24,909 bases of DNA from IMG/VR virus record IMGVR_UViG_3300046777_001131, positions 1-24,909 of that record. The stretch is one strand, 5' to 3'. Of this stretch, positions 11,406 through 24,909 are shown in pieces. The first letter of the stretch is position 1; each line of letters begins with the position of its first letter. Position numbers and translations under genes: made by a program. This stretch comes from a virus. Under the pieces are notes generated by a model that saw only the letters and a list, made by a program, of their open reading frames with translations, made no database searches and was not told where the DNA came from.

Positions 11406-13781
11406 ATGGGTATCTTCGACCGTATCTTCAGAACAAACGAGAAGCAGCTGCAGCTATCCGAGCGCGGCGAACTGCCGGGGCTCGCGACCTTAGCGTACAC
11501 GAAACACTCGTTCACTCCGGTGACGAACTTCGCGCAGGCGTACCGACTGTGGAAAGAGAACCCGGTCGCGCAGGGATGCACGATGGCCTATTCGCTCACG
11601 ATGCCAGAGGCCTATCTCGCCGTTCGCGATGGTGAGTCGTTCGTCTACGATCACCCGGTTTCCGTTCTCTTCGCTGGCTCGTCGTGGCGTCTCAGCATGG
11701 CCACAGCTATGACGTACCTCTGTATCGGCGGTAACGTCTACTACCACAAACGCCGTAACGCTGCGGGAGCGGTGGTAGATCTCAAGCCCTACTCAGATGC
11801 TAACTTTGCCCCGGTGATCGACGAGTACGGGAATATCCGCGCCTATCACTACAACAACGGCTCGACTACGTGGGAGGTTCCAAAGGATGATGTCGTTCAT
11901 ATACGCGGTTTTTGGGTGGATCCTGCTATTAGCTACGCCGGCGGCTCTCCGATTGTACTCGCATCGACGACGATTGAATCTTACAACGAGGCGAGCGGCA
12001 CGATCTTCAGCATCCACAAAAATGACGCGATGCCTAAGACGCTGGTAATCTACGACGAAGAAATGTCGCCCGACCAGGTGTCACTTGCCGAGCGTTCGTT
12101 CAAGCGTAAGTACGGCGGCGAGCGCCGCGGGTCGGTCGGTCACATGTGGGGCGTTAAGAGTGTCGAACGTTTGGCACTTGATTACAACGAACTCGGTATG
12201 GAGTCGACGTTCAGTCAATACGAGGCGCGGATCTGCGGTGTATTCCGCGTGCATCCGATTATCGCGTACACGTACGCGGGTATCATGTCGTCGACGTACT
12301 CGAATGCCGAGCAGGCGTCGAAGGACTTTACCGATATGGTCCGCGTGCCACTGTGGAACATGATCGCCGATCAGATCAACGAACAGCTTGCGATCCCGGA
12401 CTTTGGCGTCGAAGTAGGTTTTGACCTGAGCACGGTCGAAGCTCTGAAGCCGTCGGTCGAGTCACAACAGAACATCGCTATTAGCGCATTCGAGCGCGGC
12501 GTCATTACTCAGAACGAAGCTCGCGAGGCGTTCGGTCTCGATCCGGTCGCACCGATCGCTACTGTCCAGACTGCGGGACGTTCGCTGCGATTGTCGACGA
12601 AGGCGATCAGAACGAAAGACTACGAGGATATCGACTTCACTCCTCCGGCTGAAGTACGCGAAGAAGCTCTGCAGGGTCTGGAGTGGCGCGCTGAGTACGG
12701 ACGCGGTGGAACTGAGGTCGGCGTGGCACGTGCTCGCGATCTTAGTAACGGGCGCGACATATCACCGGACACGGCTCGCCGCATGAAGGCGTACTTCCTA
12801 CGTCATGAGATCGACAAAGAAGCCGAAGGCTGGAATGCAGACGAGGACGGATATCCGAGCGCCGGTCGTATCGCGTGGGCTTTGTGGGGCGGTGATCCGG
12901 GCTTTGCATGGGTTGACGATATCGTGACGCGCATGGACGCGGAAGATGCTGAGGTCGAAGACGATCCAACGGAAGGAGGCGCGGATGATTCGTCCGCGAG
13001 CTTTCGTTCTGACTCGTTAGACGACGCGACGTACTTTAAGGCCGTAGATGATATCTCGGAGAAGTGGGCGAAGCGGATCGCGATCTCGTATGGTAAGGAA
13101 GTGCGTAAGCTCGAACGCGAGATCCTCGGGGGTATCAAGGCGCACGGCGCAGTCATGACGAAACAAGAGGGCGACCCGTTCGACGTCGAAGACTGGACGG
13201 CGCGGTTCTTAGCTGCGACTGAAGAGGACCGCAAAGGCCTCGTCGAAGAGATGATCGCAGCGGCTGCGTCTGATGTCAACGCTGAAGACGGCGAGTACGG
13301 CAAGGCACGACGCGAAGGTATCGACGAGTCGAGCGCAAAGATCGCAGAGTCTATCGGTACGATCCGCGACGATGTACGAGCTATCCTAAGTCAGTCGGGC
13401 GGCCTATCCGCTGACGAGATTGCTGCGCTACTTCGTAAGAAGTTTGAGGAGATCAGCACGGCACGGGCTAACGCGATCGGCCGAACAACGGCGACGGCGA
13501 CGACAGGCAAGACGCAGACGAGCGTATGGAAACAAGTCTCCGATCGTGAGCGCGACCCGAATCGTAAGATCGTTAGACAGTGGATCTCGTTTCCGGGTGC
13601 GCGCGATACACACTCTGGCGCGTTAGGTCAGTGGGAGAACGTCAATACTGGGATGTTCACGGTCGGCGGCGAAGAGACACCATATCCCGCAGGGCCGGGA
13701 CTCTCAGCAAAGAACGCAGTCAACTGCAGGTGTATCACGCGCGCGCGTCGCTATTCTGATTACATAGCGTCGCAAGGGTAG
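11406..13781 (+). CDS. Portal protein fused to a MuF-type head morphogenesis domain
   Basis: The 791-aa protein combines three parts. Residues 1 to about 390 are a HK97-type portal (the dodecameric ring through which DNA enters), with the typical NPVAQGCT, HPVSVLF and DDVVHIRGF features. Residues about 418-507 hold a compact module ending in EGWNADEDGYPSAGRIAWALWGGDPG, which also occurs in other phage structural proteins and whose role is unknown. Residues about 680-785 form a SPP1 gp7/Mu gpF-like domain: ARANAIGRTTATATTGKTQ, then FPGARDTHSGALGQ, and the terminal AVNCRC signature. Portal and MuF are usually separate adjacent genes. The start follows the TerL stop by 11 nt. Confidence 0.9.
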   Translation: MGIFDRIFRTNEKQLQLSERGELPGLATLAYTKHSFTPVTNFAQAYRLWKENPVAQGCTMAYSLTMPEAYLAVRDGESFVYDHPVSVLFAGSSWRLSMATAMTYLCIGGNVYYHKRRNAAGAVVDLKPYSDANFAPVIDEYGNIRAYHYNNGSTTWEVPKDDVVHIRGFWVDPAISYAGGSPIVLASTTIESYNEASGTIFSIHKNDAMPKTLVIYDEEMSPDQVSLAERSFKRKYGGERRGSVGHMWGVKSVERLALDYNELGMESTFSQYEARICGVFRVHPIIAYTYAGIMSSTYSNAEQASKDFTDMVRVPLWNMIADQINEQLAIPDFGVEVGFDLSTVEALKPSVESQQNIAISAFERGVITQNEAREAFGLDPVAPIATVQTAGRSLRLSTKAIRTKDYEDIDFTPPAEVREEALQGLEWRAEYGRGGTEVGVARARDLSNGRDISPDTARRMKAYFLRHEIDKEAEGWNADEDGYPSAGRIAWALWGGDPGFAWVDDIVTRMDAEDAEVEDDPTEGGADDSSASFRSDSLDDATYFKAVDDISEKWAKRIAISYGKEVRKLEREILGGIKAHGAVMTKQEGDPFDVEDWTARFLAATEEDRKGLVEEMIAAAASDVNAEDGEYGKARREGIDESSAKIAESIGTIRDDVRAILSQSGGLSADEIAALLRKKFEEISTARANAIGRTTATATTGKTQTSVWKQVSDRERDPNRKIVRQWISFPGARDTHSGALGQWENVNTGMFTVGGEETPYPAGPGLSAKNAVNCRCITRARRYSDYIASQG

Positions 13782-21879: not shown

Positions 21880-22121
21880 AGTGTTCCGAACTGATCTCAC
21901 ACCTCGAACAGATACGCCGCGGTTACGGTGATATCGACGTACGCGTCGACTCCGATCTCTTCAGCGATCACGCGACGCGCGACGTCACGTCGATAGGTAT
22001 GCTTGAGTTTTACGTTCGCGACATTCAGGCACTCGTCATCGGAATGTATCCGAGCGAAGGGCCGAACGTTCGACGTGTTGTACTCTATGTTGGAAACGAA
22101 CCCAAATATCTGGCGAACTGA
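21876..22121 (+). CDS. Conserved small phage protein of unknown function (81 aa)
   Basis: MKCSELISHLEQIRRGYGDIDVRVDSDLF follows the 'ELI..L......D.(D/E)V.V' pattern of a very widespread family of small phage proteins of unknown role. Here the second half (MLEFYVRDIQALVIGMYPSEGPNVRRVVLYV) is strand-rich. ATGA coupling to the previous gene and TGATG coupling to the next support translation. Confidence 0.65.
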   Translation: MKCSELISHLEQIRRGYGDIDVRVDSDLFSDHATRDVTSIGMLEFYVRDIQALVIGMYPSEGPNVRRVVLYVGNEPKYLAN

Positions 22122-22894
22122 TGCTCATGATTGATCCGATGAAATCGCCACAGGGGGAACGTCCGCGTCCGTGGATCCCCGTTTCGTTTGTGTGCATCGC
22201 GCATAAAAACGACGCGCACTGGATTCAGGGAATGATATCTACACTTCCGGCGGGCTGCGAGCTCGTCGTACTATGGAACAGCCAGGGCGAGGACACGACG
22301 GTACGTGAGCGAAAAGAGAAGCTACTCGACAACGGCATCATTCTACGATTCTACGAAACAAACTGGACGGAGTTCTCATTTGCTCAGCTCCGCAACAAAG
22401 CAATCGCCAAAGCTGAACGCGACTGGATCATGTGGCTCGACGCCGACGATAGGCTGCTGGTCCATCAACACGACTTCTTTCTAAAGCTCGACGAATACCC
22501 AGCGGGAGTCGCTGGTATTTACTGCGGGTGCGTAGGGGTGCAACCTACACACGCGCCGGACAAGCCGAACGAGGTCTTACGTTTCAACGCGGAACAGCTG
22601 CGGCTTTTCCGTAACGGTCTGGGCTTTGCATTCGAGGGACGTGCACACGAGCAAATCGTGTGGAGCATTCAGAGTGCAGGGTTCAACGTTACACACTCTT
22701 CGTTGTTAGTCCATCATCAAGGCTACGAAGTGGATGCCGACTCCATGCGTAGTAAGATGGAACGCAACGTCCGTCTCTTATCTGCCGACGCGGCGGAAGC
22801 TACAGACGCAGCTCGATTCGAGTTCTACGTCAAGATGCTCGCACGCGATACGCAGAGTCTATCGTTTTACACTCAACTCAACAAAGGAAACTAA
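22121..22894 (+). CDS. Family-2 glycosyltransferase (GT-A)
   Basis: The 257-aa enzyme shows the GT2 hallmarks: VSFVCIAHKNDAHWIQGMISTL (first strand and helix), then SFAQLRNKAIAKAERDWIMWLDADDRL, where DADD (107-110) is the metal- and nucleotide-binding motif. HEQIVW and SLLVHHQGYE follow, the latter resembling a late-domain signature. It is the second glycosyltransferase gene in the window and lies inside the tail module, between tail terminator and tail tube. It may glycosylate a virion protein. TGATG overlap at the start; an alternative ATG is at 22127. Confidence 0.88.
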   Translation: MLMIDPMKSPQGERPRPWIPVSFVCIAHKNDAHWIQGMISTLPAGCELVVLWNSQGEDTTVRERKEKLLDNGIILRFYETNWTEFSFAQLRNKAIAKAERDWIMWLDADDRLLVHQHDFFLKLDEYPAGVAGIYCGCVGVQPTHAPDKPNEVLRFNAEQLRLFRNGLGFAFEGRAHEQIVWSIQSAGFNVTHSSLLVHHQGYEVDADSMRSKMERNVRLLSADAAEATDAARFEFYVKMLARDTQSLSFYTQLNKGN

Positions 22895-23490: not shown

Positions 23491-23558
23491 GCCGCGTTCG
23501 TTTGACAGGGGCGACGCGGCTCCCGAATCGGGAGTCTTTACTCTGTCAAATCCTGTCA
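23491..23558 (+). promoter_or_regulatory. Interlocking stems ending at the chaperone start codon
   Basis: GCCGCGT (23491-23497) pairs with ACGCGGC (23514-23520), and CTCCCG (23520-23525) pairs with CGGGAG (23529-23534). TTTGACAG (23501-23508), inside the first loop, can pair with CTGTCAAA (23543-23550), or TGACAGG (23503-23509) with CCTGTCA (23552-23558), whose last base is the A of the ATG. The fold could be a pseudoknot or a switch. No strong Shine-Dalgarno sequence precedes the ATG. The stem at 23520-23534 may also act in termination after the tail tube gene. Confidence 0.45.
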
Positions 23559-24106
23559 TGGAATCATGTATGAACACGATCAAATTGTACTTTGCCGGCG
23601 AAGCTAAGGACGTACCTACAAAGCCGGTCATCTCACGCGCGGTAATCAAGAGCGTCGAAGCTCCTATCGCAACACTGCGGACACTGGGACAGAATGCCGC
23701 TTTTATGAAGGCGCTGCAGGACGCGCCAAACGCCGCGAACGTTATCACGGTAGCGGGCGGTATCAACAGCTCGTTCGCTGAGGAACAGCGTAAGCTCATC
23801 AAGAGCGCCTATCCTAAGTGGACGAAGGAACAGATCGACGCCGAGATTCAACAGCGCACGCAAGCGAAGCTCCTCGAAGAGTTCCCCGGCATCTGGTCAG
23901 CACTTAACAACCCAGTGACGACGTTCCCGCTCGACAACGAAGAAGCGATCAGCGCGTCGATACAGATCGTCCAAGCGATCATCGATGATAAGCAGCTGAG
24001 CGGGGCAGAGAAGGAAGCACTCGCATCGTCGGAGTTCTGGGACAACCAAGATCTTCGGGAGGTCGCGCGCGCGGTCGCCACGTTTCGAGACGAGACTCAA
24101 CTCTGA
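23558..24106 (+). CDS. Tail assembly chaperone, short form (G-like)
   Basis: The 182-aa product lies directly upstream of the tape measure gene, the standard position for phage tail assembly chaperones (lambda gpG-like). After a short start it is mainly helical (AVIKSVEAPIATLRTLGQNAAFMKALQDAPNAANVITV, WTKEQIDAEIQQRTQAKLLEEF, EAISASIQIVQAIIDDKQLSGAEKEALASS) and ends ATFRDETQL. The second start at 23570 (MNTIKLYF) is also plausible, and neither has a strong ribosome binding site. Its stop TGA (24104-24106) is preceded by CTC and followed by an open frame in the +1 register, so part of the ribosomes probably read on. Confidence 0.8.
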   Translation: MESCMNTIKLYFAGEAKDVPTKPVISRAVIKSVEAPIATLRTLGQNAAFMKALQDAPNAANVITVAGGINSSFAEEQRKLIKSAYPKWTKEQIDAEIQQRTQAKLLEEFPGIWSALNNPVTTFPLDNEEAISASIQIVQAIIDDKQLSGAEKEALASSEFWDNQDLREVARAVATFRDETQL

Positions 24107-24156
24107 GTATAACGAGCTGCGGCGTGTTCAGGATCGATATCCGATCCTGACCGCCG
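24101..24156 (+). promoter_or_regulatory. Candidate +1 frameshift signal: CTC TGA slip site and stem-loop
   Basis: The last sense codon CTC and stop TGA (24101-24106) parallel the CTT TGA site of bacterial release factor 2, where ribosomes slip +1. Slipping gives CTC, skip T, GAG. A stem-loop follows 13 nt later: 24120-24124 with 24152-24156, G24126-C24151, T24128-A24150, and 24129-24136 with 24142-24149, a 5-nt loop (24137-24141) and two one-base bulges: 15 pairs. No Shine-Dalgarno-like stimulator like that of RF2 is seen. Confidence 0.6.
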
Positions 24157-24413
24157 AGGCTAAGGACGAAGACGGCAAGCCGTACCCTCGCAGGGTCACG
24201 GGCTACGACCTCGTTCCCGATGACGAGCACGACACACTCACGGCGGTAGCTATTTCTAAACTGTGGAATATGACACCCGACGACGTTGTATGTTCGCTCA
24301 GTGCGTCGGAGTTCATGCGCCGCGCCGCGATCGCTAAGGCCGCGGAATGGTCACAACCGACGCCCGAATCCATAGCAAAGAACCGGGAAGAGTCCCGTAT
24401 GCGGAGGCGTTAA
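24105..24413 (+). CDS. Tail assembly chaperone frameshift extension (T part)
   Basis: In the +1 register the frame is open from about 24003 to TAA 24411-24413. Its reading after the slip is EYNELRRVQDRYPILTAEAKDEDGKPYPRRVTGYDLVPDDEHDTLTAVAISKLWNMTPDDVV, followed by a helical end with SASEFMRRAAIAKAAEW and REESRMRRR. The part 'SKLWNMTPDDVVCSLSASEF' resembles the T-region of other phages ('W..TP.EV...P.SEF'). It lacks an initiation codon of its own before 24270. A 284-aa fusion with the short form would be the gpGT analogue. The reading frame is +1 (equivalently -2), not -1. Confidence 0.7.
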   Translation, partial: EYNELRRVQDRYPILTAEAKDEDGKPYPRRVTGYDLVPDDEHDTLTAVAISKLWNMTPDDVVCSLSASEFMRRAAIAKAAEWSQPTPESIAKNREESRMRRR

Positions 24414-24414
24414 C

Positions 24415-24909
24415 ATGGCAGTGTTTACAAATGAGTTACGACTGGACGCTTCGCCGTTCGTGAGCTCTCTTAAGAAGGTGCTCACGGAGGCGCAGGCTGC
24501 AGCGTCAAACGTCGAGAATACGTTTAAGAACATCGAACCACAGATCGACACGTCGAATGCGAAGAAGGCTTTCGGCGTACTCGAAACGGAAGCGAAGAAA
24601 ACGTCGTCGAATATCAAGGCCGAACTCAGCGAAGGTTTCAAGGGTCTGGGCTCGTCGATCACCGGAGGCATCATCGGCGGCGGTGTCGCCTCTGGAGTGC
24701 AGGCCGGAGCGCAGGCAATCGTAGGAGCGTTCAAGGCGGTAATTGACACGGGCTCGGAGTTCGAGCAAAAGGTCGCGGGTCTCTCAGCTATCACGGGTGC
24801 AAGTGGTCCGCAGCTCGACGACCTCGCAAACCGTGCTCGCAATCTCGCTAAGGAGTTTGGCGGTTCGGCATCTACTCAGGTGGAATCATTCCAAACGATC
24901 CTGTCGAAG
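24415..24909 (+). CDS. Tail tape measure protein, N-terminal part (runs off the window)
   Basis: ATG at 24415 follows GGAGG (24402-24406); a small hairpin (24384-24388 with 24393-24397) lies before the ribosome binding site. The 165 visible residues show the tape measure start: FTNELRLDASPFVSSLKKVLTEAQ, then helices of mixed Ala/Lys/Glu, and a hydrophobic glycine-rich stretch (GLGSSITGGIIGGGVASGVQAGAQAIVGAF). FEQKVAGLSAITGASGPQLDDLANRARNLAKEFGGSASTQVESFQTIL follows, the characteristic region of tape measure proteins. It sets tail length. The 3' end is missing. Confidence 0.92.
   Translation, partial: MAVFTNELRLDASPFVSSLKKVLTEAQAAASNVENTFKNIEPQIDTSNAKKAFGVLETEAKKTSSNIKAELSEGFKGLGSSITGGIIGGGVASGVQAGAQAIVGAFKAVIDTGSEFEQKVAGLSAITGASGPQLDDLANRARNLAKEFGGSASTQVESFQTILSK

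Follow-up and report, generated by a model that had tools for sequence, protein, structure and literature searches.

In phage λ, a fusion of the G-T type connects the tape measure with the tail-tube subunits, and the G/GT type of tail assembly chaperone frameshift was reportedly described there by Xu, Hendrix and Duda in 2004. Tail-chaperone genes for the most part shift by −1; Mu shifts by −2, and HSTV-2 likely by +1 (PMC5009743, PMC3498833). Forward slips are also found in the Listeria phages PSA, A118 and A500, which shift +1 at CCC_UGA (PMC5009743), and the PRFect SEA-PHAGES training data include forward cases, with 350 forward sites (preprint PMC10274946). Two further kinds of +1 site bear on the locus described here. 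In RF2 and antizyme the ribosome shifts +1 at the codon directly before a stop (PMC10885494). Influenza A PA-X is made by a shift at UUU_CGN (PMC3498833), and the same site has been proposed for plant amalgaviruses, with an efficiency of 1–2% cited for the PA-X site (PMC5052127). Here we present a virus locus whose sequence provides good support for +1 frameshifting of a gene that probably encodes a tail chaperone. Our main reading, to which we give a probability of roughly 80%, is that the gene upstream of the tape measure would yield two products through a +1 shift, most likely at UUU_CGA.

The window, meaning the whole 24,909-base stretch of an IMG/VR virus record that we analyzed, carries genes for terminase, portal and capsid, with the tail genes after them. 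Its portal ORF (11406–13781, 791 aa) has a head-morphogenesis domain near the C-terminus (PHROGs 2662, 12, 2468) and is a possible portal fusion, and an ORF that by eye is glycosyltransferase-like lies within the tail module at 22121–22894, ahead of the presumed tail tube gene. The features discussed below are all on the + strand. The frame-0 ORF of the frameshift gene spans 23558–24106 and could start at ATG 23558; the probable start is ATG 23570, which aligns with the MPSIKLYF starts of relatives, and the putative G-like short product is accordingly placed at 23570–24106. The ORF ends in ACT CAA CTC TGA, with the stop TGA at 24104–24106. An overlapping open +1 frame spans 24000–24413, up to and including its TAA (24411–24413), and its portion from 24087 to 24413 would encode a T-like extension of the long product. 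Directly downstream, the tape-measure ORF begins at ATG 24415 and runs off the window (24415–24909), matching PHROGs tape-measure families with a best E of 1.3e-12. The gene order is the same in relatives.

A preliminary description of this DNA had proposed a fusion at the tail-chaperone position with the downstream frame at +1. The ORFs and all related loci with both parts confirm the frame, and the short form does end in CTC TGA as described. The overlap given there as 24003–24106 exists, with its start corrected to 24000. We also agree that the second frame has no sensible start codon: ATG, GTG, TTG and CTG are all absent from the +1 frame of the overlap, and the sole weak candidate is an ATC that precedes the stop by 53 nt. 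Tape-measure adjacency and the conserved, start-less +1 frame together support a G-T-like fusion.

The role of tail chaperone is probable and was drawn from gene order, not homology. Neither the N part (the short product) nor the C part (the extension) matched a PHROGs or Pfam family, and the family libraries returned nothing convincing. An AlphaFold model of the N part reached a pLDDT of 89. Foldseek found no significant match for this model in the PDB; in BFVD it matched two uncharacterized proteins of uncultured phages (84% and 17% identity) along with weak hits, one of them a mycobacteriophage tail assembly chaperone (E 0.3). The C-part model was of low confidence (pLDDT 66). Compared with λ G/GT (reviewed in PMC5009743), the locus shares a short and a long product, overlapping frames, a place directly before the tape measure and the lack of a second start, but the shift is +1 rather than the λ-type −1 or the −2 of Mu, and homology to known chaperone families is not detectable. 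Like HSTV-2, where the tail-chaperone shift is predicted, and the Listeria phages, it places a +1 shift in a structural or tail-assembly gene of a tailed virus; the sites differ, however, and the shift in the Listeria phages affects the major tail (tsh) gene, and in PSA the capsid gene as well.

Protein searches recovered relatives of both parts on 25 other IMG/VR contigs, and the +1 layout recurs in them. Identity to the window ranges from 98% down to 33% for the N part and from 99% down to 45% for the C part, and wherever a related locus includes both parts, the start of the C part falls exactly 2 nt past the end of the N part. Persistence of this layout across divergent relatives argues against a chance overlap or a sequencing error. 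Scanning IMG/VR for the DNA pattern TTTCGAN7CTMAACTCTGAR gave 25 stretches, each on a contig that protein search had recovered before. No relative was found among isolated phages (tblastn with both parts against 50,697 phage records) or, as a host or prophage, among 84,980 genomes scanned, and Rfam gave no match. In one relative (L003, 4311–4952, compared with window positions 24415–24909), both chaperone parts are 98–99% identical to those of the window and the tape measure is only about 25% identical, which indicates a mosaic boundary right after the chaperone gene. The comparisons that follow use 21 distinct junctions for the junction itself, 22 sequences for the open frames and 12 representatives for codon choice.

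Conservation at the nucleotide level pointed to a site upstream of the stop. The hexamer TTT CGA (24083–24088), 18 nt upstream of CTC TGA, does not vary among the 21 distinct junctions and has accumulated no substitution, where the mean is 2.3 per nt. It is one of five invariant runs of at least 4 nt in the 480-nt alignment, the others being TGGGA, GGAGGT, AACTCTGA and, far downstream, GAGCA. Codon choice is just as constrained: the junction Arg (CGA) and Leu (CTC) each use a single codon in 12/12 representatives, whereas no other invariant N-protein residue with four- or six-fold degeneracy keeps one codon, and other invariant Arg and Leu columns use three to five. The +1 frame itself sets an upstream limit. 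In 9 of the 22 sequences it is open for only 5 nt ahead of TTT, in 12 others for 17–26 nt, and further only in the window (83 nt). Since the +1 frame can close as near as 5 nt before TTT, the slip must lie between that point and TGA.

We then asked which frame shapes the segment running from TTT CGA to the stop. This dual-coded stretch (24087–24106) reads (CGA) GAC GAG ACT CAA CTC TGA in frame 0 and GAG ACG AGA CTC AAC TCT (GAG) in +1. The +1 peptide, E-x-x-L-N-S-E, is kept in every sequence, and the frame-0 peptide varies as R-[DEGST]-x-[AT]-[KQ]-L. Twelve bases between TTTCGA and CTCTGA are informative, and changes at them were reconstructed by parsimony on a tree. All four sites that are first positions in frame 0 and third positions in +1 (−15, −12, −9 and −6 relative to the T of TGA) vary. 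Upstream of TTT, synonymous changes make up 65/364 in +1 (18%) and 193/364 in frame 0 (53%); downstream of TGA the pattern is 185/357 in +1 (52%) and 50/357 in frame 0 (14%). Within the dual-coded stretch, which is short and comprises 22 inferred substitutions, 10/22 are synonymous in +1 and 4/22 in frame 0. By Fisher's test the stretch differs from the upstream region in frame 0 (p = 0.0017) and in +1 (p = 0.0039), and in +1 it is comparable with the downstream region (p = 0.66). The stretch thus evolves as +1 codons, which places slippage upstream of it, and +1 translation most likely begins just after TTT C. Taken together, the conserved +1 geometry, the missing start, the invariance of TTTCGA and the +1 constraint from TTTC to TGA constitute sequence-based support for a fusion made via TTTCGA.

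In the mechanism we propose, the majority of ribosomes would stay in frame 0 through the TGA at 24106 and release the short G-like chaperone. A minority would hold tRNA-Phe on UUU (24083–24085) in the P site with CGA, a less-used Arg codon, in the A site; in the window phage, TTT accounts for 29% of Phe codons and CGA for 11% of Arg codons. Slowed by CGA, the ribosome would allow tRNA-Phe to slip one base forward from UUU to UUC, on which its GAA anticodon would pair fully. The +1 Glu codon (GAR) accounts for part of the conservation of CGA, so CGA is a candidate slow A-site codon. Decoding would resume in +1 as GAG ACG AGA CUC AAC UCU GAG, and the fusion would gain a T-like domain of 108 residues beginning ETRLNSEYNELRR. 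The shift would probably operate at a few per cent efficiency. Across the frame change the fusion is predicted to read ...VATF-ETRLNSEYNE...; the peptide TQL-EYNE expected in the preliminary description is disfavored by the +1 constraint upstream of CTC.

That expectation came from an RF2-like reading in which the slip occurs at CUC_UGA (24101–24106) during a pause at the stop codon, with a 3′ hairpin aiding in the window phage. CTC TGA is indeed invariant in 21/21 distinct junctions, where AA CTC TGA forms the second invariant junction block, so the conservation in related phages to which the preliminary description had looked was found for this motif as well as for the layout. RF2 and antizyme also provide precedent for a slip at the codon immediately 5′ of a stop. 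Most of the letters of CTC TGA are, however, fixed by the +1 codons AAC TCT GAR (Asn-Ser-Glu) together with the frame-0 stop, so a role in slipping is not needed to account for them. A slip at CUC would leave both the invariant TTTCGA and the +1 constraint upstream of CTC unexplained, as +1 coding has already begun by that point. In addition, tRNA-Leu re-pairs poorly from CUC to UCU, and neither CTC nor TTT is preceded by a Shine-Dalgarno sequence at 3 nt. The locus thus resembles bacterial RF2 (prfB) in the +1 direction and in the TGA that closes the short form, but its slip codon most likely does not sit beside the stop and has no Shine-Dalgarno at 3 nt. We consider a slip at CUC_UGA unlikely.

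The hairpin on which that reading draws is real. Its 15 pairs (24120–24156) fold at −30.6 kcal/mol (z = −5.2), and none of 200 shuffles was as stable; four outer pairs extend it to 24115–24161, so that it starts 8 nt after TGA, a spacing suited to CTC TGA. As a general stimulator we rejected it, since beyond the window and its two closest relatives folding loses significance: z is about 0 in the other 18 of the 21 distinct junctions, which lack the hairpin. Given its position 8 nt after TGA, the hairpin may have a lineage-specific effect at the stop in the window's subgroup.

A third invariant element lies upstream. The Shine-Dalgarno-like GGAGGT (24058–24063) sits inside the coding region, 19 nt ahead of TTT. 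Of the 52 frame-0 third positions upstream of TTT only three are invariant, and two of them fall in this element. GGAGGT could also pair weakly with AACTCT, and both elements are invariant. The invariance of GGAGGT would suit a ribosome-binding site for a separate gene that starts within the overlap in the +1 frame, with no fusion at all; yet in all 22 sequences the open +1 region lacks ATG, GTG and TTG ahead of the stop, and it often starts only 5 nt before TTT, making a separate gene very improbable. The least probable reading is a −2 shift into the same frame, which frame arithmetic permits and Mu uses (PMC3498833), but neither candidate codon re-pairs two bases back: from UUU, tRNA-Phe would land on a variable N-N-U triplet, the codon before TTT not being conserved, and from CUC, tRNA-Leu would land on AAC.

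A shift at UUU_CGA is the reading we carry forward, and it invites comparison with the eukaryotic viruses that use UUU_CGN. As in PA-X and the amalgaviruses, the proposed site is a zero-frame UUU_CGA with its product in +1 and no conserved structure just 3′ of it; it lies in frame within the overlap, and +1 coding most likely begins directly after UUU_C. The setting differs, being a DNA phage tail gene, presumably on bacterial ribosomes, with an invariant GGAGGT upstream. A remote relative (L111, 2755–3135; 50% identity over 38 residues) has a short form that ends in CAC TAA. At the aligned place this single case reads TCC TTT CGT, matching all nine bases of the influenza PA-X site, and a long open +1 frame comes after it. 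We tentatively raise the possibility that UUU_CGN is a +1 site convergent between phages and eukaryotic RNA viruses, here aided by the invariant GGAGGU 19 nt upstream. To our knowledge, a GGAGGT at this distance from UUU fits no frameshift stimulator and the spacing has no known role in +1 slipping; we likewise know of no Shine-Dalgarno-stimulated frameshifting at such spacing.

A partial literature search found no published description of UUU_CGA in a phage chaperone gene. Tail-chaperone frameshifts in the +1 direction are few and poorly mapped, and comparing the divergent members of one family locates the likely slip here at UUU_CGA. If confirmed, the locus would guide annotation tools on +1 chaperone genes and offer a compact system for asking what makes UUU_CGN slippery, and a forward-slip site of the influenza PA-X and amalgavirus type would be operating in a tailed phage.
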